A program made the position numbers and the translations under genes. From positions 124,001-188,000 of the forward strand of contig JAGBTN010000016.1 in NCBI GenBank assembly GCA_017631315.1: a stretch of DNA of 64,000 bases, given 5' to 3'. Source of the DNA: Bacteroidaceae bacterium (lineage in GTDB: Bacteria; Bacteroidota; Bacteroidia; Bacteroidales; Bacteroidaceae). This document shows, piece after piece, positions 1 to 51,678 of the stretch. A model generated the notes under the pieces. That model was not told where the DNA came from, did not search any database, and was given only the letters and a program-made list of their open reading frames with translations. Every line of letters begins with the position of its first letter. The first letter of the stretch is position 1.

Positions 1-46
1 AGTCGGGCAACTATACACGTTAAGTCGGGCAACTATACACGTTAAG
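1..46 (-). repeat. 22-bp tandem repeat array A (two perfect units)
   Basis: Two identical 22-bp units (1-22, 23-44) plus the first 2 bases of a third; the array may continue left of the window. On the minus strand the unit starts CTTAACGTGTATAGTT and ends GCCCGA. The same unit type at the same 22-bp period recurs at 8646, 25797, 37183, 42666 and 51613. There are no spacers between units, so this is not a CRISPR. It lies just upstream of the yccF-like gene. Confidence 0.85.
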
Positions 47-84
47 ATTTTATAATACCTTCAATTAATAAAATCACATAAAAC

Positions 85-453
85 ATGAAGACGATTGGAA
101 ACATTATTTGGGTCATTTTTGGCGGCCTCGAGATTGCGGTAGAGTACTTTATTGCCGGTATATTTATGATGCTTACCATTATTGGCATACCCTTTGGTTG
201 GCAAAGCATGAAGATGGGGCTGCTCGCACTCTGGCCGTTCGGTTCAAAAATCCAAGAAACGAGTTCACAAACGGGATGCCTGAATCTATTCATGAACATA
301 TTGTGGTTCTTCGTCGGAGGCATCTGGATATGTCTGACCCACATTGCTTTGGGCATCGTCTTCTGCATTACCCTGGTTGGCATACCATTCGGCATGATGC
401 ACTTCCGCCTGGCAAGACTTGCACTGTCACCATTTGGAAAAGAAATCGTGTAA
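85..453 (+). CDS. yccF: YccF domain-containing inner membrane protein
   Basis: A 122-residue hydrophobic protein of the YccF (DUF307) family, which are small inner-membrane proteins of unknown function. It is an internal duplication: the first half has GIPFGWQSMKMGLLALWPFG and the second has GIPFGMMHFRLARLALSPFG, each following a hydrophobic stretch, so about four membrane segments are expected. The ATG at 85 is the first start after the 22-bp array. No TAnnTTTG box is obvious in the short leader. The gene is alone and convergent with trkA, which ends 62 bp away. Family call is secure; function is not known. Confidence 0.85.
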   Translation: MKTIGNIIWVIFGGLEIAVEYFIAGIFMMLTIIGIPFGWQSMKMGLLALWPFGSKIQETSSQTGCLNLFMNILWFFVGGIWICLTHIALGIVFCITLVGIPFGMMHFRLARLALSPFGKEIV

Positions 454-515
454 GACGAGCCCCCTGGCTCAAAAACGAGCAAACAAAAGAATCGGTAATC
501 TAAGCGCGTAAGGTC

Positions 516-1898
516 CTAAAACAGATTGAATAAACCCGATTTCTGTTTGTTGAAATAGCGGTCTGTCTGCTTGATGAGTCCACTCTTGCAGAAGACCACA
601 ACACGGTCGCCAGCTTGAAGTTGGGTGCCACCATAGATAAGTGCTCCCTGATTCTCGCCACGAACATAACCACCCAAAGTAATACCATTAGGCAAACGCA
701 ATTCGCAGACTGGCTTCATACTGGCCAAACTTCCTTCGCCCACAACAACCTCAGCCACATCGGCACTGGCAACGGTAAGGCACTTGACGTTGTGAGCATC
801 TGCATCGAGCATCATCTGGTAGATATGTCCGGCTGCTATCATCTTTTTGTTTATGATAGTACCAATATCCAGCTTCTCCGCCATTGAGACATAGTCCATA
901 TTATCTACCAGTGCAACCGTCTTACGTACACCCATACGTTTGGCAGCAAGACAAGCCAAAATGTTCGTTTCCGTTTCGGGCGTAAGGGCACAGAAAGCAT
1001 GCATGTCGGGAAGACCCTCCTCAAGCAAGAGTGCTGTGTCGCGCCCATCGCCTTGAATAATACGGATATCGCTATCCTCAAGGATTTCGTTCAGCTTATG
1101 GCAACGCTCCTCGTTCTGCTCTATTATCTTTAAATTATAGAAGTCGGCCTTTCCTTCTGCCACATGAACAGAAGTACGTCCGCCACCCATAATCATAACG
1201 TTACGCACATCTGCATAATCCTCCTTTCCCACCAATTCGCGTATATATTGAATATAACGCTTTGTAGTCATAAAATAAGCAATGTCACCACTGCGCAACT
1301 CATCGTTACCCGTTGGGATAATGGTATTGTCATCGCGCTTGATGGCAACAATGCGATAAGGCGTCTGAGCATCACAAAGGTCACGAAGAGCAATTCCGGT
1401 AATGCGAGCCTTGTCCCAAAGCTTGATGCCTAACATAACCAATGCTCCGCCAGCCACCTCCCAATACTGTCGAACCCACGAACGCTTGATGCCATCGAGT
1501 ATGTCGCGAGCAGCAAGTCCTTCTGGATAGATAATAGAGTCCACGCCCATTTGTCTGAAAAGCTCACCATATTGGGGCATCATATATTCCGCCGTGTCAA
1601 CACGAGCAATCGTCTTACGCGCACCAAGAGTATGAGCCAACATACAGCATGTTATGTTGCGCGTCTCCTCTGGAGTGACAGCTATAAACAAGTCACACTG
1701 ATGGACACCACCTTCTCTCAAACCACTAATTGAGGTAGGAGAAACATTCAGTGTCATGAGATCAAGGTCGCCATTGGCAAGGAGGCGCGCAGTTTTGTCG
1801 GGATTCTCGTCAATAACGATAATATCCTGATCTTCACGTGAAAGAAGTGCGGCAAGATGTGAGCCAACAGCTCCGGCTCCGGCAATTACTATTTTCAT
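516..1898 (-). CDS. trkA: Trk system potassium uptake regulatory protein TrkA
   Basis: TrkA is the cytoplasmic NAD(H)-binding regulatory subunit that gates the TrkH potassium channel. At 460 residues the protein is the full two-repeat form: an N-terminal Rossmann domain with [10 protein letters not shown] at residues 7-16, a TrkA-C domain at about 140-225, then a second Rossmann-like domain near residue 232, where the glycine motif is degenerate (GGGRTS), and a second TrkA-C domain to about 455. Its ATG overlaps the dxs stop codon in an ATGA, so the two are translationally coupled. In many Bacteroidales trkH follows trkA directly; here trkA is followed by a convergent yccF gene, so the channel partner must be elsewhere. 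Confidence 0.93.
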
Positions 1899-3781: not shown

Positions 3782-3802
3782 GATTTCATATATTTTTCGT
3801 TG

Positions 3803-3810
3803 CAAAGATA
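3803..3810 (-). promoter_or_regulatory. -7 box of dxs-trkA
   Basis: On the minus strand this reads TATCTTTG, a match to the Bacteroidetes TAnnTTTG element, 21 nt before the proposed GTG start of dxs. No clear TTTG -33 element is at the expected distance. Confidence 0.6.
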
Positions 3811-3832
3811 TGCTTTTTTACGGAGTTTTATG

Positions 3833-3840
3833 TATTTTTG
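3833..3840 (+). promoter_or_regulatory. -7 box of the GSCFA gene
   Basis: Reads TATTTTTG (TAnnTTTG), 26 nt before the proposed ATG at 3867, forming a divergent promoter pair with dxs. It also argues against starting the GSCFA protein at 3810, upstream of the box. Confidence 0.5.
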
Positions 3841-3866
3841 TGATTAGAAATCTACAAAAAGCAAGA

Positions 3867-4742: not shown

Positions 4743-4763
4743 CCATATAAATGATTCCCACAG

Positions 4764-7237: not shown

Positions 7238-8467
7238 TTAATTTTGTTTTTTCATATTTGCCTTTTTCTTTTGGGCTTTTAGGCGTTTCACCTTACCAGT
7301 ATTGTCATTGGCGAATAGTTGAGGGAAGTGCCCTTGAAGTTGGATATCAATTGGCGAGCCTTCCACCAAATTAGAGATAAGCGAAAGACGCGTAATGGTA
7401 TCTGGTGTAGTAAAGAGCATACCGGCATCGCTGTTACGACGGACAACATTTCCCATGAAAGTAATATCGTCGAACCCTCCAACCCCATTGGTTCCGCTGA
7501 CATTACTGGCGGGAGAGATATATACGCCATAACGATTGTCAAGGAACTGATTCTGACTGACGAGAACATCAGACATATAGAAATTGCCATAGAAGCCTGC
7601 ACCGGCATTAGAATAGACCACATTGTCGGTAATGCTTATATGGCGAGCACCTTGAATAGAGATGCCATGATTACGACCATTCTTCACAATATTGTTGCTG
7701 ATAATCTGTCCTTTGCCTTCCGCCATCGGGCTGCGTCCATTTATACCATTTCCGAATCGAGCCTGGTCTTCCACAAAAATTCCGTTGTTTCCACAACCAA
7801 CACATACGCAGTTGGTGATGATAAAATTCTCGTCCTCATATCCCCTAAGGCCAATGCCTATACCACTGCCGCCGCCTTTTCCTGGAGACCAAAGGCGACC
7901 GCCTTCGATTACTCTTACATTATTTATAAGTACACGGTTCAAAAAGTCAATACCCAACGATGTGGCAGGAGTTCCTTTCAGTACGAGGTCGTCAAAGACT
8001 GCATCGGTAATAGGACGAATGTTGAAAGCCTTGCAGTTAGTAATATAGTTCTTTGGCTTCATATCGTAGGCATCCACCGTAAAATGGCAGAAACGCACAG
8101 ACTCGATGGGTGCGAAAACACCTTGTGCTGTGCTCTCGCCAATAAACAACGACCAATTGGTATTGCCCTCCATGCGAAGTACAGTGCTCTGTACGGAAAC
8201 ACCTTCTAGAGCCACGCGCGAGCGCCACTTAACCGTACCCTTGAACGTATAAGTTCCAGAAGATAGTTGAATGAGACCTCCGCCCTTGGCATGAACACTA
8301 TCAACCAATGCCTGTAAGGCAGGAGTGTTGTCAGGATTCTGTGGCATTACACCATAATCGCAAGCATAGAATTGTACACCTTGTGCCCACAAAACAAAGG
8401 GGCAAAGCAAGCAACACACAAACAAAGTAAATAATCTAAAGGAGTTATTGGAAGATAATGTTCCCAT
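7238..8467 (-). CDS. Secreted right-handed beta-helix (pectate-lyase-superfamily) protein
   Basis: A 409-residue protein with a signal peptide at residues 1-29 (hydrophobic core ending FVLWAQG). Residues about 30-100 look like a Pectate_lyase_3 module (FYACDYGVMPQNPDNTPALQ, then GGGLIQLSSGTYTF). The rest is made of parallel beta-helix rungs such as NGIFVEDQARFGNG, NHGISIQGARHISITDNVV and YGVYISPASNVSG. Proteins of this fold include pectate lyases and other polysaccharide-acting enzymes, but no specific substrate can be read from the sequence. The C-terminal end is lysine-rich. A TATCTTTG box lies 58 nt upstream. It is a single gene bounded by the 7187-7215 terminator and divergent from the ABC importer operon. 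Confidence 0.75.
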   Translation of the reverse strand: MGTLSSNNSFRLFTLFVCCLLCPFVLWAQGVQFYACDYGVMPQNPDNTPALQALVDSVHAKGGGLIQLSSGTYTFKGTVKWRSRVALEGVSVQSTVLRMEGNTNWSLFIGESTAQGVFAPIESVRFCHFTVDAYDMKPKNYITNCKAFNIRPITDAVFDDLVLKGTPATSLGIDFLNRVLINNVRVIEGGRLWSPGKGGGSGIGIGLRGYEDENFIITNCVCVGCGNNGIFVEDQARFGNGINGRSPMAEGKGQIISNNIVKNGRNHGISIQGARHISITDNVVYSNAGAGFYGNFYMSDVLVSQNQFLDNRYGVYISPASNVSGTNGVGGFDDITFMGNVVRRNSDAGMLFTTPDTITRLSLISNLVEGSPIDIQLQGHFPQLFANDNTGKVKRLKAQKKKANMKKQN

Positions 8468-8645: not shown

Positions 8646-8730
8646 GTTAACACGTTAAGTCGGCAAAGTTAACGTGTTTAATCGGTCAACTTAACACGTT
8701 AAGTCGATCATGTTAACACGTTAAATAAAG
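8646..8730 (+). repeat. 22-bp tandem repeat array B (about four units)
   Basis: Units begin at 8646, 8668, 8690 and 8712, each exactly 22 bp; the last is incomplete. Typical unit: GTTAACACGTTAAGTCGG plus CAAA. The second unit carries the core in the other orientation (AACGTG rather than AACACG). The array occupies the divergent intergenic region between the beta-helix gene and the ABC importer. Confidence 0.85.
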
Positions 8731-8798: not shown

Positions 8799-9932
8799 AT
8801 GCCGAAGAATTTGCGCATCATATGGTTCCTTCTTCTCTCTTTTCTATTATTCTGCTGCGGGAAGAATAAAACAGAACACTTGTCAGAGGTTGGTGATACA
8901 CTCTCGCTCAGACACGCAAAAAACCTGACTATCGTCACCTTTCCTGAAAGAATAGACGTAACGATGCGCAACCCATGGGACACAACCGCGATTTTGGCAA
9001 AGTACAGCCTTGTCACCAAGCAACATCAAACAACAGAAAAGAACCTTCCTTCTTATAAAAGCAGAGAGAGGAAAATCATTTTTACACCTCTTGAACGAGC
9101 CGCAGTATTCAGCAGTGTCCATTGTGCATTGCTCCACGAATTGGGAGCAGACACAGCCGTGGGCGGTATCTGCGATTTAGAGTTTCTCAATCTTGCAAAC
9201 TACAAAGAAGCGGTAAAAGATGGCCGCATCACTAATCTCGGTAACAGTATGCAACCCAACCTGGAACGGTTGCTCAATCTCAACCCCGATGCTTTGCTGC
9301 CAAGCCCCTTCGAAAATAGTGGCGGACTTGGACGTGCAGAAAAACTTGGATTCCCTATTATCTGGTGTGCCGATTACATGGAAAACACGCCGCTCGGTCG
9401 CGCAGAATGGATTCGCTTCTATGGTCGTCTATTCGGCAAAGCAGAAATAGCAGACAGCATATTCTTTGTAGTGGAAAGCCGTTACAAAGAACTATGCAGT
9501 TTGACCAAAAATATACAAACCAAGCCCAGGCTCTTACCAGAAATGCCATGGAGCGGACAATGGACGCTACCCAGTTCTGGCAGTTACTCTGCAAAACTAT
9601 ATCAAGATGCAGGTGCGAAATACATCTTCGCAGACTTAAAAGGCAACGGCAGTATTCCCCTTAGTACAGAAAAGGTTCTGGATAGAGGGATGAAAGCCGA
9701 CATTTGGCTCATAAAACATCATGGTACGCTCAATCGCCATCAGATAAATACCGACACCCCACTACTCTCAAGCATCAAGGCTCCCATTTGGTGGTGCAAT
9801 ACCGCAGAAATGCCCATCTTCGAAGAAACACCCTTCCATCCCGAACTATTATTGGAAAGCCTCATCGCAATTATACACCCCAATCTAGGCATAAAAGCAC
9901 AACGCGAATACTTTAAGCCACTGGCAAACTAA
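8799..9932 (+). CDS. ABC importer substrate-binding lipoprotein (FecB/BtuF class)
   Basis: A 377-residue periplasmic binding protein with a lipoprotein signal (LLSFLLFCC, Cys about 19-20). It belongs to the cluster that binds iron-siderophore, haem or cobalamin ligands: long-helix architecture, with recognisable stretches AAVFSSVHCALLHELGA, NLERLLNLNPDALLPSPFE and SSGSYSAKLYQDAGAKYIF. It delivers ligand to the permease encoded directly downstream; its TAA shares one base with the permease ATG. No cobalamin riboswitch is possible in the very short leader, so the ligand is left open. The transcript probably starts within a few nucleotides of the ATG. Confidence 0.85.
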   Translation: MPKNLRIIWFLLLSFLLFCCGKNKTEHLSEVGDTLSLRHAKNLTIVTFPERIDVTMRNPWDTTAILAKYSLVTKQHQTTEKNLPSYKSRERKIIFTPLERAAVFSSVHCALLHELGADTAVGGICDLEFLNLANYKEAVKDGRITNLGNSMQPNLERLLNLNPDALLPSPFENSGGLGRAEKLGFPIIWCADYMENTPLGRAEWIRFYGRLFGKAEIADSIFFVVESRYKELCSLTKNIQTKPRLLPEMPWSGQWTLPSSGSYSAKLYQDAGAKYIFADLKGNGSIPLSTEKVLDRGMKADIWLIKHHGTLNRHQINTDTPLLSSIKAPIWWCNTAEMPIFEETPFHPELLLESLIAIIHPNLGIKAQREYFKPLAN

Positions 9933-15978: not shown

Positions 15979-17169
15979 ATGAAGATATTAGTTCTCAACT
16001 GTGGCAGCAGTTCCATAAAATATGCACTCTACAACATGGACAATCAGTCCGTTATCACAAGTGGCGGTATTGAGAAAATAGGATTGCCCGACTCGTTCAT
16101 AACAGTAAAGCTCAATGGCGAAAAATACAAGATGGAACGTCCCATAGCAGAACATACTGCAGGCGTGCAGTTCATCTTCGAGGTGCTCACGAGCGGTGAA
16201 TATGCTGTGCTTCAGAATTTGAACGAGCTTGATGCCGTAGGCCATCGCATGGTGCATGGTGGCGAAAAGTTTAACAAGTCTGTACGCCTCACCCCTGAGG
16301 TAATGGAAGCCTTTGCCGCTTGCAACGACCTGGCTCCTTTGCACAACCCTGCCAACATCAAGGGCGTCAATGCAGTCAAAGCCTTGTTGCCCGACGTGCC
16401 ACAGGTAGGCGTCTTCGATACGGCTTTCCACCAGACGATGCCCGACTATGCTTATATGTATGCCCTGCCCTATAATCTTTATAAGGAGTATGGCGTGCGT
16501 CGCTATGGTTTCCATGGAACAAGTCATCGCTATGTCAGCCAACGCGTTTGCGAATTCCTCGGTTGTAATGCGGAAGACAAGCGCATCATCACATGTCACA
16601 TTGGCAATGGTGCTTCAATTGCCGCAGTCAAGAACGGCAAGTGTGTCGATACCTCTATGGGACTGACTCCTCTGGAAGGTCTTATGATGGGTACACGCAG
16701 CGGCGATATTGATGCCGGCGCAGTAACGTATTTAATGGATAAGTTCAATCTCGACACAAAAGGCATTTCAGACCTCTTGAATAAGAAGTCAGGTCTTGCA
16801 GGTGTAAGCGAAGCGAGCAGCGACTTCCGCGACATACTTGCAGGCATTGCCGCTGGTAACGACAAGGCTCGTCTGGCAAAGGAGATGTACACTTATCGCA
16901 TCAAGAAGTACATAGGTGCTTACGCTGCCGCAATGGGCGGAGTAGATATTATCCTCTTTACCGGTGGCGCAGGCGAGAACCAATGGGAAGTACGCGAAGG
17001 TGCCACAAGCGGTCTGGAATACATGGGTGTCAAGATGGATGCAACCAAGAACCGTGCATGCCGTGCCACCGAGGCGATTCTCAGTAGCGACGACAGTGCA
17101 GTAACCGTATGCTGCATTCCTACCGACGAGGAACTAATGATTGCTCTCGACACACAGGCTCTCTGCTAA
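15979..17169 (+). CDS. ackA: Acetate kinase
   Basis: AckA transfers phosphate from acetyl phosphate to ADP, giving acetate and ATP, and works with Pta encoded just upstream. At 396 residues it has normal length. Family motifs are intact: LVLNCGSSSIKYAL at the start, GHRMVHGGEKF, GFHGTSHRYVS, CHIGNGASIAAVKNG, and GLMMGTRSGDIDAGAV. A strong terminator hairpin follows at 17192. The pair supports a fermentative, acetate-producing metabolism. Confidence 0.96.
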   Translation: MKILVLNCGSSSIKYALYNMDNQSVITSGGIEKIGLPDSFITVKLNGEKYKMERPIAEHTAGVQFIFEVLTSGEYAVLQNLNELDAVGHRMVHGGEKFNKSVRLTPEVMEAFAACNDLAPLHNPANIKGVNAVKALLPDVPQVGVFDTAFHQTMPDYAYMYALPYNLYKEYGVRRYGFHGTSHRYVSQRVCEFLGCNAEDKRIITCHIGNGASIAAVKNGKCVDTSMGLTPLEGLMMGTRSGDIDAGAVTYLMDKFNLDTKGISDLLNKKSGLAGVSEASSDFRDILAGIAAGNDKARLAKEMYTYRIKKYIGAYAAAMGGVDIILFTGGAGENQWEVREGATSGLEYMGVKMDATKNRACRATEAILSSDDSAVTVCCIPTDEELMIALDTQALC

Positions 17170-25796: not shown

Positions 25797-25884
25797 CTAC
25801 ACGTGTATAAATCGCAAACTTCACGTGTAAAGATGCCCAACTTCACGTGTGTAAATGGCAAACTTCACGTGTGTAGTTTTTCGT
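25797..25884 (+). repeat. 22-bp tandem repeat array C (four units)
   Basis: Units start at 25797, 25819, 25841 and 25863. Typical unit: CTTCACGTGTGTAAATGG plus CAAA. The array is enclosed by an 11-bp inverted repeat, CGAAAAACTAC at 25790-25800 and GTAGTTTTTCG at 25873-25883. From 25885 to about 25981 I see nothing further. Confidence 0.85.
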
Positions 25885-26436: not shown

Positions 26437-27117
26437 GTGTCGGCAACCAAACAAGAATCTTCACAAATCAAATCGAAAGAGCGAGTCTCCCTGCACGGCG
26501 AAGTGTTTACTGCCGAGCGGGAAGTAAACGCCATGCTCGATCTTGTGGCAAGCGAATGTCTTCGTCCCGATTCCCGTTTCCTGGAACCGGCTTGTGGCGA
26601 CGGCAATTTCCTTTCTGCCATTCTCAAACGCAAACTCACCGAACTGAGGCGCAAGTACAAAAAGAGTCCACACGACTATGAGAAAATGGCTATTGTGGCT
26701 ATTGGTAGTCTTTATGGTGTGGACATCATGAACGACAATGTCATTGCATGCCGAGAACGCTTGTTTGGCATCTGGGATGCTGAGTATACCTGTCATTGCA
26801 AGGGTGAAACATCAGACGAGACGCGCGAGGCTGCCCGTTTCATCATCAGCCGAAACATCATCAACGGCAATGCACTGACGCTGATGTGCGTGGACTCTGT
26901 GGGCAAAGATACAAAAGCCCCTATTGTCTTTTCCGAATGGACATTGATAGGTGGCACGCAGATGCAGCGTTCCGACTACACCATGACAGACCTCCTGCTC
27001 TACAGCGAGGAGGGCACACTCTTTGCCGCCCTTACCGAGGAGCAGAAGGAGGAAGGCGGAGTATTCCTGAGAAGATACATTACCCACTATAAAAAGGTAC
27101 AAGAGTATGGAGAATAA
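26437..27117 (+). CDS. N6-methyltransferase-like protein without catalytic motif IV
   Basis: A 226-residue protein with a clear AdoMet-binding motif I, FLEPACGDGNFL (residues 48-59), as in adenine-N6 methyltransferases. No NPPY/DPPY motif is present: where it would be expected, the sequence reads through FSEWTLIGGTQMQRSDYT. It therefore looks like a methyltransferase half or a non-catalytic partner. The GTG start is supported by a strong Shine-Dalgarno. It overlaps the next gene, a complete methylase, by 11 bp, so the two products are probably made together and may form a complex. It opens an apparent four-gene restriction-modification-like operon. Confidence 0.75.
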   Translation: MSATKQESSQIKSKERVSLHGEVFTAEREVNAMLDLVASECLRPDSRFLEPACGDGNFLSAILKRKLTELRRKYKKSPHDYEKMAIVAIGSLYGVDIMNDNVIACRERLFGIWDAEYTCHCKGETSDETREAARFIISRNIINGNALTLMCVDSVGKDTKAPIVFSEWTLIGGTQMQRSDYTMTDLLLYSEEGTLFAALTEEQKEEGGVFLRRYITHYKKVQEYGE

Positions 27118-28639
27118 TTTGTTTCAAAGCGTTTATAATCCCGACGTCCTTTCGTGCATTGCCAATCTTAGCAACGATGAGGTGTTCACCCCTCCCGAAT
27201 TGGCAAACAAGATTATTGACATGCTCCCACAGGAGTTGTTCGAGAATCCCGACACCACGTTCCTCGATCCTTGTTGCAAGAGTGGAGTTTTCTTGCGTGA
27301 GATTGCCAAACGATTGATTAAAGGACTTGAACAACAGATTCCCGACCTTGAAAAGCGTATAGAGCATATATTCTCAAAGCAGTTGTTTGGTATTGCCATT
27401 ACGGAACTGACCAGCCTGTTGGCTCGACGCAGTGTGTATTGCAGCAAGTTCCCGAGCAGTGAGTTTTCTGCATATCAGTTCCCCGAGGACAAGCCACAGG
27501 GCAATATCATCTTCCAGCGCATAAAGCACAAATGGTATAACGGCAAATGTATCTATTGCGGTGCTTCGCAAAGCGAGTACGACCGTGGTAACGAACTTGA
27601 GACTCACGCATATCAATTTATCCACAACATAGACGTAAAGAAACTTTTCAATATGAAATTCGATGTGATTATAGGCAACCCACCGTATCAATTACAAGTG
27701 AATGAAAGTGGTAAGGGTTTAGGTGCAATTCCTCTGTATAACAAGTTTGTTGAACAGGCGATGAAACTTCAACCTCAATATCTAACTATGATTATTCCAT
27801 CGCGATGGTTCGCTGGCGGTGTAGGTCTTGATAAATTCAGACATAACATGTTATCAGATAAAAGAATTCGTAAAATTGTAGATTATACAGATTCTAAGGA
27901 ATGCTTTCCTGGAGTTGATTTAAATGGTGGTGCTTGTTATTTTCTATGGGATTCGTCTTATAATGGTGATTGTGATTTTACGAATATAACTAATAGAGTT
28001 TCGAGTAGTGCAATCAGAAATCTGAATGAATTTGATGTTTTTCTTCGTAGGAATGAGGCTGTAAGTATTGTACACAAAGTGTTATCATTTAATGAAACAA
28101 TGTTATCCAAAGAAGGAGGATGTAGCCCACAAACTCCATATGGATTACTTTCTACTTTTATTGGTAATACAAAGCGTATGCATAATGACGAACTTGAAGT
28201 ATTAAGTAGCAAGGGATGGATGTATATAGAAAGAAATGCTATAACAAAAGGAGTAGATAGTATTGGGAAATATAAAACTTTAATTTCTAAGCTATCCTGC
28301 GAACATGCTGGTAATCCAGATAAGAATGGTATGTACCGAGTTTTGAGTCGAATGGAAACTCTTAAACCAAATCAAATATGCACGCAATCGTACTTAATAT
28401 TATGCCCGACAAATACAGAAATAGAAAGTCAAAACCTACACACTTATTTAAGAACAAAGTTTGTTCGTTTCCTGATATTGCAGACATTAGTAGGAATGAA
28501 TATATCTATTAGCAATTTCAAATTTGTTCCATGGCTTAATTATAAAGAGACATGGACAGATGAAAAACTATACGCCAAATACGGATTAACAGATGAAGAG
28601 ATTGCCTTTATCGAATCAATGATACGTCCAATGGAGTGA
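27107..28639 (+). CDS. Eco57I-type adenine DNA methyltransferase with specificity region
   Basis: A 510-residue methylase of the Eco57I/TaqI class. AdoMet motif I is FLDPCCKSGVFL (residues 52-63), with an unusual CCK in place of the common glycine run. Catalytic motif IV is NPPYQ at 191-195. Between them a possible zinc site has CIYC (148-151), His167 and His173. The C-terminal half (about 230-510) is the target-recognition region and ends with LYAKYGLTDEEIAFIESMIR, typical of this class. From about 27700 the DNA becomes distinctly AT-rich, so the recognition part may have been exchanged by recombination. The enzyme should protect host DNA against the nuclease-helicase at 29109. Confidence 0.88.
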   Translation: MENNLFQSVYNPDVLSCIANLSNDEVFTPPELANKIIDMLPQELFENPDTTFLDPCCKSGVFLREIAKRLIKGLEQQIPDLEKRIEHIFSKQLFGIAITELTSLLARRSVYCSKFPSSEFSAYQFPEDKPQGNIIFQRIKHKWYNGKCIYCGASQSEYDRGNELETHAYQFIHNIDVKKLFNMKFDVIIGNPPYQLQVNESGKGLGAIPLYNKFVEQAMKLQPQYLTMIIPSRWFAGGVGLDKFRHNMLSDKRIRKIVDYTDSKECFPGVDLNGGACYFLWDSSYNGDCDFTNITNRVSSSAIRNLNEFDVFLRRNEAVSIVHKVLSFNETMLSKEGGCSPQTPYGLLSTFIGNTKRMHNDELEVLSSKGWMYIERNAITKGVDSIGKYKTLISKLSCEHAGNPDKNGMYRVLSRMETLKPNQICTQSYLILCPTNTEIESQNLHTYLRTKFVRFLILQTLVGMNISISNFKFVPWLNYKETWTDEKLYAKYGLTDEEIAFIESMIRPME

Positions 28640-28652
28640 CAAAATAAGCAGA

Positions 28653-29099
28653 ATGAATATGATAGAAGATTTTGTTTACGAATGGACAAAAAGAGCAGGA
28701 CAAGAAGAAACAGGTTCTTTGTTTCAATTTGTATGTTATTATATTGCTTTTAACCATTTGTATAGTGGATATATATATAATGATGGTCGTAATTTGAGTG
28801 AATTGACTTCAATGAAAGAGTATATTAAGGAGGTAGTGAACAGTCGTAAATTTAATCCATATGAAAAGCTCTCCTCTGAGAGTGAACTTTTGAAAGGTGT
28901 TTACTCAGAGAAATTGAATAAGGTAACGAGTGAAATAAAACTCCAGAATAGAAATATTGAAGAATTGTTTACGAGTATTTATTATGTACGTTGTAATCTT
29001 TTTCATGGTTCGAAATCAATGCATAGTGAGAGAAACAAAAAGTTAGTTCTTGATAGCTGTAAAGTTTTGAGTTCACTATTTGATGTTCTAAACGATTAA
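28653..29099 (+). CDS. HEPN-like protein in the restriction operon
   Basis: A 148-residue mostly helical protein. Near the C-terminus it has VRCNLFHGSK, in which Arg113 and His118 form the R-x4-H motif of HEPN domains, with the LFHG ending common in that superfamily. HEPN proteins are often RNases in toxin-antitoxin and defence systems; activity here is inference. It starts 13 bp after the methylase and ends 9 bp before the helicase gene, so it belongs to the operon. Its DNA is as AT-rich as the methylase recognition region and unlike the flanking genes, suggesting both came in together. An inert scaffold or specificity cofactor is the alternative. Confidence 0.65.
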   Translation: MNMIEDFVYEWTKRAGQEETGSLFQFVCYYIAFNHLYSGYIYNDGRNLSELTSMKEYIKEVVNSRKFNPYEKLSSESELLKGVYSEKLNKVTSEIKLQNRNIEELFTSIYYVRCNLFHGSKSMHSERNKKLVLDSCKVLSSLFDVLND

Positions 29100-29108
29100 T
29101 CTTAGTTT

Positions 29109-32015
29109 ATGCCAAACAACTTCTTCCCCCAACGCCCAACCGTTACTCCAACCATCTATGCTTATCGGCTCCTTGGAGTTGATACGCACAAAGGCTATCT
29201 GAAGGTTGGCTATACCGACCGCACCGCCAAGGAACGCATAGAGGAGCAGTTGCACACCAGCAAGGTGCAATACGAGATAGTGCTGGTTGAATCTGCCATG
29301 ACCAACGACGGTTCTTGCTTTATGGACAAGGATGTGCACAAGGTGCTTGAACGCAAAGGGTGTCGCAGGCTTAATCCGCTTGACAGGACAGACGAGTGGT
29401 TTAGGTGTACAGTCGCCGATGTAATGGCTGCAATCTTGTCGCTCCGCACAGGAACGGACAATGTGGACAGCAGGACACAGGACTTCGCCATGCGACCCGA
29501 GCAGTTTCGTGCTGTGGAGCAGACAAAAACGCATTTTGAACAGGCACTGAAGGAAGAACCCAACCGCATACCCAAGTTCCTATGGAATGCCAAGATGCGC
29601 TTCGGCAAGACCTTTGCCAGTTATCAGTTGGCAAAGAAGATGGGCTTGTCACGCATATTGATTCTTACATTTAAGCCCGCTGTTGAATCGGCTTGGCGTG
29701 AAGACCTTGTGTCGCACATGGACTTTGAAGGTTGGCAATATATCTCTAATAAAGATGCCAAAAACAACAACCTAAACATCGACCAAGAGTTCAAGCGTGC
29801 CGATAAGTCAAAGCCGATTGTCGTGTTTGGTTCGTTCCAAGACCTGCTTGGCACAAACGAAAGTGGCGGCATAAAGACAAAGAACGAATTCATCCACTCC
29901 ACCAACTGGGACTTGGTGATATTCGACGAATACCATTTCGGAGCTTGGAGGGAAAGGGCAAAAGAATTGTTCCAAAAAGAAGACGAAGAAGATGCCGTAG
30001 ACTTTGATGCAGAGAAATATCAAAAGGAAGAAGCAAACAATGCCATAAACGAATCGTGGTTGCCAATCTCCACAAAGTATTATCTCTTCTTGTCGGGAAC
30101 TCCGTTCCGTGCCATAAACAATGGTGAGTTTATCGAGGAGCAGATTTTCAACTGGACTTACAGCGATGAGCAACGAGCCAAAGCAGAATGGAAAGGGAGC
30201 GGTAACCCTTATCTCGCCTTGCCACGAATGGTAATGCTTACCTATCGTATGCCCGACGAGATACAAGAGGTTGCCAAGCAAGGCGAGTTTGATGAGTTCG
30301 ACCTAAATCTGTTCTTTGCAGCAGAGGGCAAAGGAGAACAGGCTCGCTTCAAGTATGAGAATGAGGTGCAAAAGTGGTTAGACCTTATTCGTGGCGGTTA
30401 CTTGCCTGCAAGTGTCGATGACTTGAAACTCGGACAAGACAAGCGGCCACCAATGCCGTTCAGCGACACAAGGTTGCTCAATGTGCTTTCGCATACATTG
30501 TGGTTCCTGCCCAATGTGGCATCATGCTTTGCTATGGCAAACCTGTTGGCACAGAAGCAGAACAAATTCTACCACGACTATAAAGTGATAGTATGTGCAG
30601 GAACAGCAGCCGGCATCGGTCTTGACGCGCTGCACCCTGTTCAAGCCAACATGGGAGACCCATTGGAGACAAAGACCATTACGCTCACTTGCGGTAAACT
30701 GACAACAGGTGTAACTGTGAAGCCCTGGACAGGAATCTTCATGCTCCGCAATCTGAAAAGCCCTGAAACCTATTTCCAGGCTGCATTCCGCGTGCAAAGC
30801 CCTTGGGAGGTGAAGAATGAAGAGGGAAGCAAAACCATAATGAAGAATGAGTGCTATGTGTTCGACTTTGCACTTGATAGAGCCTTGCGACAAATATCCG
30901 ACTACAGTTGCCGCTTGGATATAAACGAAAGCAATCCCGAAGCAAAGGTTGGCGAGTTCATAAAGTTCCTGCCTGTATTGGCTTACGACGGCAGCAGCAT
31001 GAAAGAAGTCGATGCACAGGACATTCTTGATATTGCTTTGGCAGGCACATCGGCAACACTACTTGCAAAACGTTGGGAGTCGGCTCTGCTTGTCAATGTA
31101 GATAACGACACTCTTAAACGCCTGCTTGCAAGCCCCGAAGCAATGAAAGCCTTGATGAATATAGAAGGCTTCCGAAACCTTAATAATGACCTCACTACTA
31201 TTATCAATAAATCGGAGGCTGTCAAGAAGGCGAAGAAAGAAAATCCTGACCCAACACCAAAGGAGAAGAAAGAACTTTCTGCCGAAGAGAAGGAAATGAA
31301 GAGCAAACGCAAACAGATTCAAGAGAAACTGATAAAGTTTGCCACCCGAATTCCTGTATTTATGTACTTGACCGACTATCGTGAACGATGTCTTAAAGAT
31401 GTTATCACGCAGTTAGAGCCCGGCTTGTTCAAAAAGGTTACAGGTTTGAGTGTAGAGGATTTCAATATGCTTTGCTCGCTTGGTGTATTCAACGCACCAT
31501 TGATGAATGACGCAATCTTCAAGTTCAAACGTTACGAGGATGCAAGCCTTACCTACACAGGCATTAACAAACATTCCAACGACGAGGTCGGCGGTTGGGA
31601 CACAACCATACGCAGAACACAGTATGAAAAATTGTTCTACAATCAGCAATCATCAATGACCGCTATAGATTATAGTGCGTATTCCAGAAGTAACGAACCC
31701 GTCGAGAACAAACGAACAGAGCAGCCAAGAATAGCAGTAAAGGTAGAACAGACTCAACCTGCGCCCATTATTCAACCACAACCGACAAAAACAACTGTTG
31801 CTGAAAGCGTTTCACAAGAGAAACAAACAGAGAATGACCTCGAAAGCAAATTAGAATCAATAGGCATTGACAGTACTGTTGTTCACAAGAAATTCGGGAA
31901 AGGAACGGTTGTAAAATTCAACAAGAACGAAAAGTTTATCCATATAAAATTTACTCTTGGCGAAAAGAAATTCATCTTCCCCGATGCTTTCCTGATGGGA
32001 TTCTTGGAAATATAA
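29109..32015 (+). CDS. GIY-YIG nuclease / SF2 helicase fusion (restriction subunit)
   Basis: A 968-residue protein. Residues about 15-100 form a GIY-YIG-like nuclease domain (IYAYRLLGVDTHKG, then LKVGYTDRTAKERIEEQL). An SF2 helicase follows: Walker A variant NAKMRFGKTF near 158, the DEAD-type box FDEYHFG near 271, motif III SGTPFR near 329, and motif VI QAAFRVQ near 558. After a charged linker (about 700-760) and a further region, the last 50 residues (VVHKKFGKGTVVKF...) resemble the SH3-like tail of UvrD-type helicases. By analogy with type I/III systems it would move on and cut unmethylated DNA. It is the last gene of the operon, and its base composition returns to that of the first methylase gene. 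Confidence 0.82.
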   Translation: MPNNFFPQRPTVTPTIYAYRLLGVDTHKGYLKVGYTDRTAKERIEEQLHTSKVQYEIVLVESAMTNDGSCFMDKDVHKVLERKGCRRLNPLDRTDEWFRCTVADVMAAILSLRTGTDNVDSRTQDFAMRPEQFRAVEQTKTHFEQALKEEPNRIPKFLWNAKMRFGKTFASYQLAKKMGLSRILILTFKPAVESAWREDLVSHMDFEGWQYISNKDAKNNNLNIDQEFKRADKSKPIVVFGSFQDLLGTNESGGIKTKNEFIHSTNWDLVIFDEYHFGAWRERAKELFQKEDEEDAVDFDAEKYQKEEANNAINESWLPISTKYYLFLSGTPFRAINNGEFIEEQIFNWTYSDEQRAKAEWKGSGNPYLALPRMVMLTYRMPDEIQEVAKQGEFDEFDLNLFFAAEGKGEQARFKYENEVQKWLDLIRGGYLPASVDDLKLGQDKRPPMPFSDTRLLNVLSHTLWFLPNVASCFAMANLLAQKQNKFYHDYKVIVCAGTAAGIGLDALHPVQANMGDPLETKTITLTCGKLTTGVTVKPWTGIFMLRNLKSPETYFQAAFRVQSPWEVKNEEGSKTIMKNECYVFDFALDRALRQISDYSCRLDINESNPEAKVGEFIKFLPVLAYDGSSMKEVDAQDILDIALAGTSATLLAKRWESALLVNVDNDTLKRLLASPEAMKALMNIEGFRNLNNDLTTIINKSEAVKKAKKENPDPTPKEKKELSAEEKEMKSKRKQIQEKLIKFATRIPVFMYLTDYRERCLKDVITQLEPGLFKKVTGLSVEDFNMLCSLGVFNAPLMNDAIFKFKRYEDASLTYTGINKHSNDEVGGWDTTIRRTQYEKLFYNQQSSMTAIDYSAYSRSNEPVENKRTEQPRIAVKVEQTQPAPIIQPQPTKTTVAESVSQEKQTENDLESKLESIGIDSTVVHKKFGKGTVVKFNKNEKFIHIKFTLGEKKFIFPDAFLMGFLEI

Positions 32016-35070: not shown

Positions 35071-37128
35071 ATGATAGACCGTATTACCGTTGACAAGATT
35101 CTGGACGCCGCGAACATCGTGGATGTCGTCTCTGACTTCGTCACGCTGAAGCGCGCCGGAGCCAATCTGAAAGGATTGTGTCCCTTCCATGACGACCACA
35201 CGCCATCGTTCGTTGTATCGCCAGCTCGTAACACATGCAAGTGTTTCTCTTGTGGTGAAGGTGGCAGCCCCGTCGGGTTTATTATGAAACACGAACAACT
35301 CTCCTACCCCGATGCGCTACGTTATCTGGCAAAAAAGTACGGCATCAAGATAGAAGAAAAAGAACTGAGTCCGGAGGAACTTCAGTCGCAAGGCGACCGA
35401 GAGAGTATGTTCATTATCAACGAATGGGCACGCGACTGGTTTAAAAATCAACTTTGGGAAACGCCCGACGGCAAAGCTATCGGACTTGCATACTTCCGCA
35501 ATCGTGGTTTCCGTGACGACATCCTGGAGAAATTTCAGGTTGGTTTCTGCCCTAACAGCAAAGAGCTGTCTCTTTCTGCAGAAGCACTAAAGAATGGCTA
35601 TAAAGAACGCTATCTCGTAAACAACCAGAACGAGATGGAACCCCGTTTGAGCATCGGAACTGGTCTGAGCCTGAAGCGCGACGACGGCAGTCTGCGTGAC
35701 CGTTTCTACGGACGAGTCATATGGCCCATCTACACCTTTGGAGGCAGAGTGGCAGGCTTCGGAGGCAGAGTGCTCGATGCTGCAACAAAAGGTGTTGCAG
35801 TAAAATATCTGAACTCTCCTGAAAGCATCATATACAGCAAACGCAAAGAACTTTTCGGCCTTTTTCAAGCTCGACAAGCCATTCGCAAAGCAGATCTCTG
35901 CTACCTTGTGGAAGGTTATACCGACGTGATGGCAATGCACCAACAAGGCATAGAAAACGTAGTTGCATCCTCCGGAACTGCTCTCACAACCGACCAAATT
36001 CGCCTCATTCATCGCATTACGAGCAACATTACAGTTATTTTCGATGGTGACGATGCTGGTATTCACGCAAGCGAACGTGGCATCGATATGTTGCTGGCCG
36101 AAGGAATGAACGTCAAGTTGCTTCTCCTGCCAGATGGCGAAGACCCCGACAGCTTTGCACAAAAGCACTCCGCTACAGAATATCAGCAATACTTAAAAGA
36201 CAATCAGGTTGACTTCATAACCTACAAAGCCACCCACGCAATCGGAGCGAAGAGAGGCGAACCCGATGCCGAGGAACGTCTCATACACAATGTTACTGAA
36301 AGCATTGCCGCTATCCCTGACGAAATAAAGCGTACCGTATACATCCAACATGCATCGCAACAGTTGAAGATGCCAGAGCGACTCATCGAGAGAGCCGTCA
36401 ATGCGCAAAGAAACAAACTAAACGCAGAAAAGCAAAAGGAACTGGAGCGCGAGCAAAGACAAACACAGATTCCTACCTACTCCCCCGAAGGTGAGAAAGC
36501 CACCAGCAGTCCGAGTAGTCCGACAATATCTCAAGACAACATAGAGAAAGCCGGACTTGAGACTTATGTTGCTCAAATGATTATCCGTTATGGAGAAAGG
36601 ATTATGTGTACCATCGAAGACGAAGACGGACAAGACATGCCCTTAAGCGTAGCCGAATATATTTCCCTAAGTCTGAAGGACGATGCAATACAACTGCAGA
36701 CACCTGCATGCAGGTCTATTCTTGAAGAAGCCATAGAAAATGCGCATACGCCCAACTTCCGCGCAGAGCAATACTTCAACAATCATCCTAACGAACAAAT
36801 TCGTGAACTCGCATTCAAACTTGGCACCGACGCTGTGGAGTTGAGCAAGCTATACGACATCCCCACTTTTTCCACACCAATCGACAAAGGAACTGGGCAA
36901 GGCAACGATACCGATTTGCGCCTCGACGAGATTGTGCCAAGCCTCATTGCAAGCTATAAGCTTAACGTTATTCAGCAAGAACTGCAAACCATCATAGAGC
37001 AGATGAAAAGCAGTGAGGTGAAAGCAGACAAAGACAAGTATCGTCAGCTCTTACTGCAGTTCACGCAGAAGAAAAAACTCAGTACAGAGCTCGCCAAGCA
37101 ATGCGGCGACCGCGTTGTGCTCAAATAA
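35071..37128 (+). CDS. dnaG: DNA primase
   Basis: DnaG makes RNA primers at the replication fork. At 685 residues it has an N-terminal CHC2 zinc domain (LCPFHDDHTPSF...CKCFSCGEGG), a catalytic core with the Toprim signature YLVEGYTDVMAMHQQG, and VIFDGDDAGIHASERGIDM, with the acidic residues that bind magnesium. The C-terminal region is the divergent helicase-interacting part. It is the last gene of the rplY operon, 28 bp after hslR, and is followed by a 22-bp repeat array rather than an obvious terminator hairpin. Confidence 0.96.
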   Translation: MIDRITVDKILDAANIVDVVSDFVTLKRAGANLKGLCPFHDDHTPSFVVSPARNTCKCFSCGEGGSPVGFIMKHEQLSYPDALRYLAKKYGIKIEEKELSPEELQSQGDRESMFIINEWARDWFKNQLWETPDGKAIGLAYFRNRGFRDDILEKFQVGFCPNSKELSLSAEALKNGYKERYLVNNQNEMEPRLSIGTGLSLKRDDGSLRDRFYGRVIWPIYTFGGRVAGFGGRVLDAATKGVAVKYLNSPESIIYSKRKELFGLFQARQAIRKADLCYLVEGYTDVMAMHQQGIENVVASSGTALTTDQIRLIHRITSNITVIFDGDDAGIHASERGIDMLLAEGMNVKLLLLPDGEDPDSFAQKHSATEYQQYLKDNQVDFITYKATHAIGAKRGEPDAEERLIHNVTESIAAIPDEIKRTVYIQHASQQLKMPERLIERAVNAQRNKLNAEKQKELEREQRQTQIPTYSPEGEKATSSPSSPTISQDNIEKAGLETYVAQMIIRYGERIMCTIEDEDGQDMPLSVAEYISLSLKDDAIQLQTPACRSILEEAIENAHTPNFRAEQYFNNHPNEQIRELAFKLGTDAVELSKLYDIPTFSTPIDKGTGQGNDTDLRLDEIVPSLIASYKLNVIQQELQTIIEQMKSSEVKADKDKYRQLLLQFTQKKKLSTELAKQCGDRVVLK

Positions 37129-37182: not shown

Positions 37183-37270
37183 CTTAACACGTTAACTTTC
37201 CCAACTAAACGTGTATAGTTTGCCAACTTAACACGTTTTGTTGGCCGACTTAACATGTTTGTTTTATCTC
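37183..37270 (+). repeat. 22-bp tandem repeat array D (four units)
   Basis: Units start at 37183, 37205, 37227 and 37249; the last overlaps the stop region of the convergent lipoprotein gene. Units read like CTTAACACGTT...CCAA and CTAAACGTGTATAGTTTG plus CCAA. The array fills the space between the 3' ends of dnaG and the lipoprotein gene. Confidence 0.82.
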
Positions 37271-40252: not shown

Positions 40253-42652
40253 ATGAAACGTTTCCTTTTTTTCATTTTGCCTCTGCTGTGGGGCACTATG
40301 AACATATTTGCACAGGATGAGCAACAGCCCGACACAACTAAAGTTCACCTGAAAGGAAGGGTCGTGGACGAAAGCCAAGACCCTATCTCATTGTGTCAAG
40401 TCCGCATCGAAGGGCAACCTTTTGGCACTACGGCTTCGATTGACGGAAAGTATAATTTCACCTTCCACACTGCCGACAGTGTTGTGGTCATCTACAGCAT
40501 GATCGGATATGAGACACGAAAACGTGTCCTCAAGAAGCCACAAGGTAACCTGACGCTCAATATCGTCATGAAGGAGAGTGGCAAAGAAATGGCAGAAGTC
40601 ACTGTTGCCGAAGCACGCAGGCAGATGGGCTCGATGCAGGAACTCAACAAAAAAGACCTTAAACGAATGCCCAGTACCAGCGGCAATGCCGTAGAGGAAC
40701 TTGTGGCAACGCAAGCCGGCGTGAGCACACACAACGAGTTGAGCAGTCAATACAACGTGCGAGGCGGTTCGTTCGACGAGAACTGTGTTTACATAAATGG
40801 TGTGGAGGTGTATCGTCCCATGCTCATAAGCAGCGGCCAGCAGGAGGGGCTTTCTGTCATTAACAGCGACATGGTGGAAAAGATCAGTTTCTCGGCTGGT
40901 GGTTTCGAAGCGAAGTATGGCGACCGTATGTCCAGCGTGCTCGATATTACCTATGCACATCCACAGCGACTCGAATCGACCGTTTCGGCCAGTTTGCTTG
41001 GGGCAAATGTTTATGTCGGTTATGGCAAAAAGAAATTCTCCATAAGCAACGGACTTCGATACAAGACCAATCAGTACATGCTTAGCAGTCTGGAAACGAA
41101 GGGAGAATACAAGCCTAACTTCCTCGACTACCAAGCTTACCTGCGCTGGGCGCCATCCAAGGCATGGACATTCGATGCCATCGCCTATATCAACCGCAAC
41201 AACTACAACTTTAAGCCTACAGACCGCGAGACGAAGTTCGGTACGATGGAGGACGTCAAGAGTTTCAAGGTGTACTTCGACGGCAAGGAGGAAGACCAGT
41301 TCCAAACGCTCTTCGGCACTATTCGTGCTGCACGCCACTTTGGCGATGCCGGTTCGCTGACACTTACTGCATCGGCTTTCAACAACCGGGAAAAGGAGAC
41401 CTACGACATCCAGGGGCAGTATTGGCTTAACGAGACGAACGGCGATGAGCAGTTGGGTGTTGGTTCGTACATGGAACACGCGCGCAACTTCCTTTATAGT
41501 TCTGTGCAGACGCTCAAACTTACTTATGATTTGAAGAAGGGCAACCACACCATGCAGACCGGCATCGGCTGGAAACATGAGAAGGTACGAGAGAACTCTA
41601 ACGAATGGGAGTATCGCGACAGCAGCGGATATAGTGTTCCTCATACAGGAAACGACCTGCAGCTCATCTATAACATGCGTGCCACGAACACCATCAATGC
41701 AAGCCACCTCGAACTTTTTGCCCAGGACACCTGGCGAAAAGAGAGCAGCTTCGGCATTCTAAGCCTCAATTATGGTATGCGACTCAGCTACTGGGGTTGG
41801 AACAAAGAGTGGCTCGTAAGCCCCAGAGCAAGTTTGGGTTTCGTGCCTTCGTCCAACGAAAACTTCACGTTCCGCCTGGCGTTGGGACTCTACAATCAGC
41901 GTCCTTTCTACAAGGAGCTGCGAGACACGGTCACCATCGACGGCAACACTACCGTACAACTCAACAAGAACATTAAGTCGCAGCGCAGTTTCCAAGTGGT
42001 GACAGGCATGGAGTATCGGTTCAAGATTGGCGGACGTCCTTTCAAGTTTACCACCGAGGCATATTATAAGGCGCAGTGGAAACTCAACCCCTACAACGTT
42101 GACAACCTGAAGATTGTCTACTATGGCAACAACCTTGCAACGGGCTATGTTGTGGGAGCAGACTTTAAGGTCTATGGTGAATTTGTGCCCGGCACCGACT
42201 CTTGGGTTAGTTTTGGTCTTATGAAAGCCAGCATGAAGCTGAACGGGCAGAACATCCCCCAGCCTACCGACCAACGCTACAACGTGAACATCTTCTTCTC
42301 CGACTACTTCCCGGGCACTACCCGATGGAAGATGAACCTAAAGGCTACCTTCGCCGACGGCCTTCCTTTTGGTCCGCCACACACGGGTTTGGAACGCAAC
42401 AGCTTCCGCGCACCAGCCTATCGTCGCTTTGATATCGGTATGAACTACCGCCTCGTCAACAACGAGGACAACCATCTGCGTCGTGCAAAATTCTTGCGTA
42501 ACATCTGGCTCGGGCTCGACTGTTTCAACATCTTCGGCCTTAACAACGTAAGCAGTTACTACTGGATAACCGACATATCCAACCACCAGTATGCCGTACC
42601 TAACTACCTGACCGACCGCATGATAAACGCTCGCATACTGGTAGAACTGTAG
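40253..42652 (+). CDS. TonB-dependent receptor with carboxypeptidase-like N-terminal domain
   Basis: A 799-residue outer-membrane receptor. A signal peptide (to MNIFAQ, residue about 21) is followed by a CarboxypepD_reg-like domain (VHLKGRVVDESQDPISLCQV, to about 110). A plug domain follows (PSTSGNAVEELVATQAGV, YNVRGGSFDENCVYINGVEV), then a beta-barrel to the C-terminus (ending MINARILVEL). It would take up a scarce nutrient using TonB energy. No SusD partner is adjacent, so it is not a standard polysaccharide-utilisation pair; the ligand is unknown. Confidence 0.9.
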   Translation: MKRFLFFILPLLWGTMNIFAQDEQQPDTTKVHLKGRVVDESQDPISLCQVRIEGQPFGTTASIDGKYNFTFHTADSVVVIYSMIGYETRKRVLKKPQGNLTLNIVMKESGKEMAEVTVAEARRQMGSMQELNKKDLKRMPSTSGNAVEELVATQAGVSTHNELSSQYNVRGGSFDENCVYINGVEVYRPMLISSGQQEGLSVINSDMVEKISFSAGGFEAKYGDRMSSVLDITYAHPQRLESTVSASLLGANVYVGYGKKKFSISNGLRYKTNQYMLSSLETKGEYKPNFLDYQAYLRWAPSKAWTFDAIAYINRNNYNFKPTDRETKFGTMEDVKSFKVYFDGKEEDQFQTLFGTIRAARHFGDAGSLTLTASAFNNREKETYDIQGQYWLNETNGDEQLGVGSYMEHARNFLYSSVQTLKLTYDLKKGNHTMQTGIGWKHEKVRENSNEWEYRDSSGYSVPHTGNDLQLIYNMRATNTINASHLELFAQDTWRKESSFGILSLNYGMRLSYWGWNKEWLVSPRASLGFVPSSNENFTFRLALGLYNQRPFYKELRDTVTIDGNTTVQLNKNIKSQRSFQVVTGMEYRFKIGGRPFKFTTEAYYKAQWKLNPYNVDNLKIVYYGNNLATGYVVGADFKVYGEFVPGTDSWVSFGLMKASMKLNGQNIPQPTDQRYNVNIFFSDYFPGTTRWKMNLKATFADGLPFGPPHTGLERNSFRAPAYRRFDIGMNYRLVNNEDNHLRRAKFLRNIWLGLDCFNIFGLNNVSSYYWITDISNHQYAVPNYLTDRMINARILVEL

Positions 42653-42665: not shown

Positions 42666-42753
42666 AGGTTAAGCATTATTGGCAAAAAGGTTAAGCATTA
42701 TCGGCCGAATGGTTAAGCATTATTGCAAGAAAGGTTAACCATTATTTCCGACA
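42666..42753 (+). repeat. 22-bp tandem repeat array E (four units, divergent type)
   Basis: Units at 42666, 42688, 42710 and 42732, each exactly 22 bp, reading AGGTTAAGCATTATTGGC plus AAAA. The sequence differs from the other arrays but keeps the 22-bp period, the TTAA core and the TGGC block. It follows the TonB receptor stop codon by 13 bp. The stretch 42754-42853 shows nothing else. Confidence 0.82.
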
Positions 42754-45520: not shown

Positions 45521-45568
45521 TATTATCATACCATTTCCCTTCCCATTAACATATTTTTTTTGCTATTG

Positions 45569-45600: not shown

Positions 45601-45645
45601 CGTGAATTATATACACATAAACTAAACCTACCCAACCCAAACAAT

Positions 45646-46941: not shown

Positions 46942-46945
46942 TTGT

Positions 46946-51343: not shown

Positions 51344-51440
51344 ACGCCATCACCTTGTTTCATGCAACCGCCATGAAACAAGCCTGCGCATAAGTGACTC
51401 CATCTGTAAGACACGTACGGATGTGAAGCCCGAAGAAAAG

Positions 51441-51473
51441 CAGCGACTGCCAACAAGATGTTGGCAGTCGCTG
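51441..51473 (+). terminator. Hairpin downstream of the CotH gene
   Basis: A perfect 14-bp stem (51441-51454 with 51460-51473) and a 5-nt loop. Only a weak T-rich tail follows. Confidence 0.6.
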
Positions 51474-51612
51474 TTCTTGTATTATAATGTTTCAAACGGG
51501 GAGAAATATATCGGAGAAGATGACTCCTGGCCTCATCGTAGAACGTAGCAAACAAAGGCGTTTTCCAACGCCACGCGTCCATTTGAAAAAGTTCTCCAGA
51601 GAAGTTGCCCGA

Positions 51613-51678
51613 CTCAACGTGTATACTTTGCCAACTTAACGTGTATAGTTGGCCGACTTAACGTGTATACTTTGTGAA
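51613..51678 (+). repeat. 22-bp tandem repeat array F (three units)
   Basis: Units at 51613, 51635 and 51657: CTTAACGTGTATA followed by CTTTG or GTTGG and CCAA/CCGA. The array is between the 3' ends of the CotH and kinase genes. In the rest of the 51344-51806 gap I see only the hairpin at 51441; 51679-51806 shows nothing recognised. Confidence 0.85.

Follow-up and report, generated by a model that had tools for sequence, protein, structure and literature searches.

Dispersed intergenic arrays of 22-bp dyad units in a Bacteroidaceae genome: candidate platforms for cooperative protein binding

Why should a bacterial chromosome carry, between its genes, short arrays of one strict repeat length? 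The question is raised by the window analysed here, a stretch of 64,000 nucleotides (contig C16, positions 124001-188000) from a Bacteroidaceae genome (G000; assembly of 2.68 Mb in 21 contigs). An earlier note on this DNA had described six arrays of exact 22-bp units, and both the coordinates and the period are borne out (Table 1). A self-match scan over lags 12-44, with a threshold of at least 24 of 33, picks out exactly these six places at lag 22; the other lags of the range 12-43 give no match in the window, and lag 44 is the harmonic of 22. At its lowest threshold, Tandem Repeats Finder adds 12 weak or unrelated rows (periods 7-15 and 87), none of them with period 22.

Table 1. Arrays and associated end caps in the window; positions are those of the window unless a contig is given.
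Feature	Position	Strand	Subfamily	Units	Setting and remarks
Array 1	1..54	-	A		tandem gap; the window edge truncates a longer array, leaving its right part
Array 1, full extent	C16:123945-124058 by lag; 123937-124054 by matrix
Array 2	8646..8730	+	A	about four	divergent gap, flanked by genes 7238-8467(-) and 8799-9932(+)
Array 3	25797..25884	+	A, CTTCACGTGT variant	four	divergent gap; both ends share GAAAAACTACAC in inverted orientation
Array 4	37183..37270	+	A	four	convergent gap after dnaG (35071-37128)
Array 5	42666..42753	+	B, core AAWGSTTAASCWTT	four	tandem gap directly after a TonB-receptor gene (40253-42652)
Array 6	51613..51678	+	A	three full	convergent gap
Variant dyad end cap GTTCTCCAGAGAAG	51591..51604	.			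22-bp register with array 6; by eye
Variant dyad end cap CTTCTCTCGAGATG	51679..51692	.			22-bp register with array 6; by eye

The arrays and their distribution in the genome

All six arrays are intergenic, and the divergent, convergent and tandem settings that the note had reported hold up, with two arrays in each. Genes were taken from a simple purpose-made caller; by lag extent, two of the six touch a gene end, overlapping it by 13 and 1 bases. The wider genome, which the note had proposed to search, carries many more copies. The degenerate unit CTTAACRYGTWWARTYKGCCRA, allowing at most three mismatches, has 246 matches in G000, well above the 4 of the reversed pattern, contrary to the note's refuting condition of no more arrays than chance.

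Three contigs (C16, C10 and C12; 642 kb, 24% of the genome) were sampled. C16 and C10 together hold 34 arrays detected by matrix, with 0 positions above threshold in the reversed sequence, and one further array near 106.0 kb of C16 that is seen at lag 22 only. On C12 the matrix detects 21 arrays and lag alone adds another, while 1 position of the reversed sequence exceeds the threshold. The total of 57 arrays in 642 kb, roughly one per ten thousand bases, extrapolates to about 240 arrays per genome. The DnaG relatives listed for this genome come from uncultured Bacteroidales that carry the label Bacteroidaceae or Prevotellaceae, and ruminants are the source of many of them; among those listed, isolate RGIG4268 from roe deer colon comes closest, at 94% DnaG identity.

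The window has other features of its own. A likely restriction-modification locus spans 26437-32015, with an Eco57I-type methylase in two overlapping frames (26437-27117 and 27107-28639) and, later in the locus, a gene (29109-32015) whose product has T5orf172 and ResIII helicase domains. The stretch at 54266-61303 encodes two large proteins, both with dockerin type I domains. One of them has leucine-rich repeats of the BspA type and matches cohesin below the cut-off, and an 87-bp DNA repeat (55105-55296) lies inside the first.

Unit architecture and selection

Each unit consists of a 14-bp dyad core and an 8-bp near-palindromic spacer close to TTGGCCAA, so the strand of an array is weakly defined. 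The subfamily A core reads CTTAAC-RY-GTTAAG, with AC or GT at the centre of 125 of 132 distinct units, and the subfamily B core is common to several arrays of G000. The note had seen a core shared by four arrays and drift in the others; the array at 42666 instead represents this second subfamily, which recurs elsewhere in the genome. A third half-site, CWAGGC, stands alone or is paired with an A half-site.

Different core types keep a common register. Among pairs of mixed type lying at most 70 bp apart, 40 of 57 are separated by 22, 44 or 66 bp where chance would give about 3 in 70 (AB 10/22, AC 12/14, BC 18/21), and multiples of 22 separate 269 of 278 A pairs and all 124 B pairs; these pairs are non-independent events, since the core patterns tolerate two mismatches and the orthologous arrays of a related genome, G023, were counted too. 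Such mixtures could also be duplicates that have drifted in place. Array size is narrow: in 95 of the 101 arrays of G000 and G023 (6 with fewer than two core hits were left out), 70 hold three or four in-register cores, the pooled counts being partly dependent because the two genomes share loci. Some arrays terminate in variant dyads or in A/T tracts.

The note had also held that units are more alike within arrays than between them, as in concerted evolution, and had offered a minisatellite as one candidate. For 99 subfamily A units, picked by matrix on two contigs, similarity is 72.2% within arrays (130 pairs) and 71.6% between them (4,721 pairs; P = 0.19), so the claim fails for the main subfamily and leaves concerted evolution within arrays unsupported. 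The pattern fits a unit sequence that is kept to one standard across the genome, as expected of selection acting in trans. Units next to each other resemble one another a little more than non-adjacent ones do (73.8% versus 70.3%), and neighbouring units share their orientation in 110 of 146 cases; duplication therefore happens.

Comparison with G023, which is 90.5% identical to G000 over 179 kb aligned, shows how the arrays change. Of the 57 arrays, 22 had flanks in the G023 sequence compared; one of these led to a 79% match without an array that is non-syntenic with the rest, and another lay beyond the fetched end. Absence from the same loci in all relatives, with no other copies, would have refuted the earlier note; instead, 19 of the 20 testable positions have an array called in both genomes. 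At the 20th none is called in G023 and the cores are still visible in the alignment by eye; no empty site was found among the 20.

This persistence bears on the idea of a mobile MITE-like element, similar to BrickBuilt, that carries an internal repeat and has spread through the genome. Dispersed intergenic copies are what such an element would leave, and the array ends offer some further hints, with an A-tract at the left end of 39 and a T-tract at the right end of 21 of the 95 arrays, against an AAAA background of 5%, and inverted ends common to three arrays of another species, G034. The shared positions, the missing empty site, the scarcity of close neighbours described below and the lack of any Y1 transposase match in the genome count against it, and we regard it as quite unlikely, though the arrays may have a leader or tail in common. 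The three G034 arrays, at 16405, 45218 and 51668 of its contig C1 (L180, L243, L244), are nearly identical, have the outer ends TTGCAGCATCATGA/TCATGATGCTGCAA in common and look more element-like than those of G000.

Within the arrays, substitutions fall unevenly. Between G000 and G023 the core differs at 47 of 816 positions (5.8%), a value that may somewhat understate core divergence as units were located with the G000 matrix, compared with 61 of 467 in the spacer (13.1%), 624 of 4921 in flanking intergenic DNA (12.7%) and 7.4% in coding sequence; arrays and flanks differ over 19 pairs (Wilcoxon P = 0.017). The slowest core positions, with subfamilies pooled, are 2, 5, 6, 8, 9, 10 and 13, which is a half-site pattern. 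Gaps of at most 16 bp are about six-fold rarer in arrays (3 in 1,575 bp, 1.9 per kb) than in flanks (57 in 5,051 bp, 11.3 per kb). One array accounts for two of the three, 1-bp gaps that compensate each other; the third, of 8, makes two units when joined with a gap of 36, and otherwise the arrays have gaps of 22 and 22. Length differences of entire units are seen in several orthologous arrays, arrays 4 and 5 each having one unit fewer in G023. Half-sites and spacing are thus both under selection, and the half-site conservation and fixed spacing that mark a cooperative operator array are found in the G000/G023 comparison and in the register pairs.

Neutral minisatellites, produced by slippage duplication with nothing selecting them, would account for these whole-unit differences and for the shared orientation and closer similarity of adjacent units. 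They sit poorly with one dominant period, mixed core types in register, a narrow size, equal similarity within and between arrays, a core slower than spacer and flanks, and few small indels. The minisatellite candidate is therefore unsupported and, in our judgement, very improbable.

A dyad could also act as a hairpin. In 94 distinct A units, arm complementarity equals that of shuffled units at most pairs and is lower at 3-12 (34% versus 49%, z -3.3). Likewise, 132 A units from the three contigs, 60 units of the species G008 and 52 of G024 stay at the shuffled level or below at most pairs; pairs 5-10 in G000 (z 3.1) and 4-11 in G024 (z 4.9) lie above it. Arms without covariation within units speak against base pairing, as RNA or as a cruciform, within units. 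Between species both arms change together, for example to CTCAACACGTTGAG in G120, a pattern expected of a dimer site as well as of a hairpin. Folding energy averages z -2.8 for 34 arrays on both strands and -0.9 for 58 control windows, with values on the printed strand from +1.3 to -7.9. The missing covariation and this uneven folding leave a hairpin or cruciform structure unsupported.

The note's suggestion of a protein bound along one helical face of each array gains support from the selection on half-sites and on 22-bp spacing, from the absence of arm covariation within units and from the narrow size. We consider it somewhat better than even, at a probability of roughly 55%, that the arrays are cooperative binding platforms for a predicted dimeric, sequence-specific DNA-binding protein, with a likely role in chromosome organisation. 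One dimer would occupy each 14-bp quasi-palindromic core, that is, two 6-bp half-sites around a 2-bp centre. With 22 bp, or two helical turns, between neighbours, three to four dimers would line one DNA face. The extrapolated set of platforms, intergenic, most often in convergent gaps and usually kilobases apart, might then act as points of nucleation or anchorage, insulating adjacent transcription units or domains of supercoiling from one another. The period, the architecture, the selection on half-sites and spacing, the placement, the scarcity of close neighbours and the species-specific sequence are seen in the data; that a protein binds, that it is a single family and what its binding does are inferred. 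Selected cooperative dimer sites fit the data better than a minisatellite, a MITE or an RNA.

Placement along the chromosome

Called genes contain none of the 28 lag-detected arrays on C16 and C10, of which four overlap a gene end by 1-17 bases; over all contigs examined in seven species, 4 of 148 arrays are inside one. Among gaps of at least 95 bp on eight contigs of G000, G023, G008, G024 and G034, arrays occupy 39 of 61 convergent, 70 of 186 tandem and 27 of 99 divergent gaps (convergent versus divergent, P = 6.6e-6), with G002 and G001 (5 arrays), the C12 gaps at 146-240 kb and 6 unassigned arrays left out of these counts. G002 has arrays in 1 of 5 convergent, 2 of 30 tandem and 0 of 6 divergent gaps, and G001 in 1 of 4 divergent and 0 of 10 tandem gaps. 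In tandem gaps the array tends to lie in the first half, toward the end of the upstream gene (23 of 26 in G000, 18 of 25 in G023). This placement would fit chromosome organisation or insulation between transcription units, and the nucleoid site or boundary role proposed for the arrays stays a plausible candidate.

Operators of ordinary local transcription regulators would likewise be dyad sites, and the occupied divergent gaps could be theirs. They seem unlikely given the preference for convergent gaps and for the upstream gene's end; with a site in every 10 kb, mostly off promoters, such a regulon is hard to credit.

The same closeness to gene 3' ends, together with folding energies below control, suits elements that act on transcripts, such as 3'-UTR hairpins or bidirectional terminators. 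Terminator-like matches are indeed commoner in tandem gaps with arrays than in those without (30/70 versus 40/161, P = 0.008), in a weak test where arrays were unmasked and array gaps are longer, and where the antisense control also rises (21% versus 8%). There is no sign in this test that arrays replace terminators. Transcript elements appear unlikely in view of the lack of arm covariation within units, the wide range of folding z, a unit orientation random to transcription in tandem gaps (57 with, 50 against) and the absence of any Rfam match in the window.

Neighbouring arrays are rarely close together. The 128 distances between neighbours include 1 under 2 kb (15 expected), 7 under 3 kb (27 expected) and 26 under 5 kb (48 expected); none of 3,000 draws reaches the observed shortage, and a null matched by gap class agrees. 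The shortage was first spotted on C16 and C10; below 5 kb it is also seen on C12 alone (P = 0.04) and in G023 (0 of 5,000 draws). Even, ruler-like spacing was rejected: the low coefficient of variation on C16 and C10 (P = 0.0016) failed on the held-out C12 (P = 0.86), and the test in G023 is borderline (P = 0.05).

Two parts of C12 stand apart. A 31-kb stretch at 5-36 kb is array-free in G000 and in G023 too, and the region at about 145-242 kb is array-poor, with a single lag-only match at the end of a called gene. The latter is read as integrated conjugative DNA because it has genes for TraG, TraM, a coupling protein and an integrase. More specifically, about 148-237 kb (L194-L198) encodes TraG, TraM, the coupling protein, an ArdC/MutS-domain protein and a tyrosine integrase, in one element or several.

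Some of these results count against the platform model, namely the array-free 5-36 kb of C12, the failed even spacing on C12, and array densities that vary from 16 in 120 kb in both G024 and G008 to 4 in 116 kb in G002 and 1 in 40 kb in G001. The shared neighbour orientation and the closer similarity of adjacent units, as duplication would give, also count against it.

Known systems and other species

Enterobacterial BIME/REP sequences are dispersed intergenic palindromic arrays, found in hundreds per genome and linked to gene 3' ends. The present arrays resemble them in all these respects but have a strict 22-bp period, show no arm covariation within units and occupy divergent gaps. REP/BIME hairpin palindromes were rejected as complementarity of the arms is at the shuffled level or below at most pairs, and RAYT-driven REPs were rejected as the RAYT/Y1 transposase family PF01797 has 0 matches in G000 (86.6% complete). 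The sites of parS/ParB, Noc, MatP and SlmA are dispersed palindromes read by dimers, single and not in phased arrays, and widely kept in sequence. The likeness lies in dyad sites across the chromosome, and the difference in the phased arrays and species-specific sequence seen here. Only one place in G000, on contig C1, comes within 1 mismatch of TGTTNCACGTGNAACA, which counted against parS itself; the one ParB-domain match is on contig C1. A CRISPR array was excluded because the units abut without unique spacers, the 8-bp spacer being a motif that the units share.

Within the same order, one paper describes BrickBuilt, a minisatellite/MITE of Porphyromonas gingivalis with a 23-nt unit AGAYCATARTATCCTCTCRTRTG, 19 elements of 1 to 22.8 units, a leader and tail, and terminal inverted repeats (PMC4596501). 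Both consist of short tandem repeats scattered between the genes of a Bacteroidales genome, with variable unit number, but the arrays here have period 22, another sequence that departs from the 23-nt consensus, and mostly three to four units. The same paper mentions, citing another, that P. gingivalis W83 has 22-nt tandem repeats, whose locations it does not give (PMC4596501); they have the unit length of the present arrays and come from the same taxonomic order. Apart from this mention, searches of open-licence papers, with few subscription papers among them, gave no description of such arrays, and passages of PMC6749651 and PMC5771137 hold nothing on 22-bp arrays.

The period extends beyond one species. 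In 36 same-genus genomes, represented by stretches of at most 20 kb (634 kb), 22 is the commonest period, with 24 arrays in 16 of the 36; four genomes of other families (74 kb) have no arrays at any period. In other genera of the family, period-22 arrays occur in 4 of 16 stretches, of which 1 was unreadable and 2 were under 4 kb. One such stretch, L228 of G071, has three within 20 kb with TGCCGCTTT or parts of it in common.

The unit sequence, by contrast with the period, is species-specific, with types as different as AAGACGCGCGTCTT, CGGGACGCGTCCCG, CGCACCGTGGTGCG, ACTCCCCTAGGGGAGT and TACATGTA across same-genus genomes. The dyad recurs in part: across 24 consensus units the best dyad has on average 5.6 of 7 pairs, versus 4.6 in shuffled units (combined P = 8e-7), with all seven pairs in 7 of the 24, single significance at P < 0.05 in 8 and many without a clear dyad. 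At DnaG loci, a whole-unit dyad reaches P < 0.05 in 11 of 33 arrays.

The gap after dnaG carries a lag-22 array (threshold at least 22 of 30) in 13 of 31 loci tested, out of 70 fetched, with varied units. Sequence turnover in place was set aside for these arrays, which may be independent gains, because convergent gaps so often carry arrays. Synteny between G000 and five other species yields 12 shared gaps with no array in either. Viral contigs give 0 matches to a strict two-unit pattern, a result that says little because the pattern is strict.

Many-copy bacterial sites such as parS, matS, Chi and the like tend toward widely kept sequence. Here period, dyad and placement recur but the sequence does not, and the set could therefore show a genome-wide protein-DNA code in change. 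A bolder and distinctly tentative idea is that of a genus-wide chromosome-organising system of uncultured gut Bacteroidaceae, in which hundreds of phased dyad arrays and their binder would co-evolve so fast that sister species have unrelated sequences, yet keep the 22-bp register, the small size of the arrays, their preference for convergent gaps and their spacing by kilobases. If true, bacteria would have an analogue of satellite DNA and the proteins that bind it. For the platform model, the wide motif differences between species of the genus are a difficulty, since a single abundant protein would have hundreds of sites to follow. The arrays offer a concrete handle, as bait DNA and as predicted sites, on chromosome organisation in the Bacteroidaceae.

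The next commonest periods in the same-genus genomes, 21 and 14, fit 7-bp repeats of related loci. Arrays of 7-bp units are found in related Bacteroidales at L088:3794-3930, L091:3898-4015, L128:5385-5500 and others, with AAGAATT, AATGAAG and CCTCAAA as example units, and L088 has both 7-bp and 22-bp arrays.
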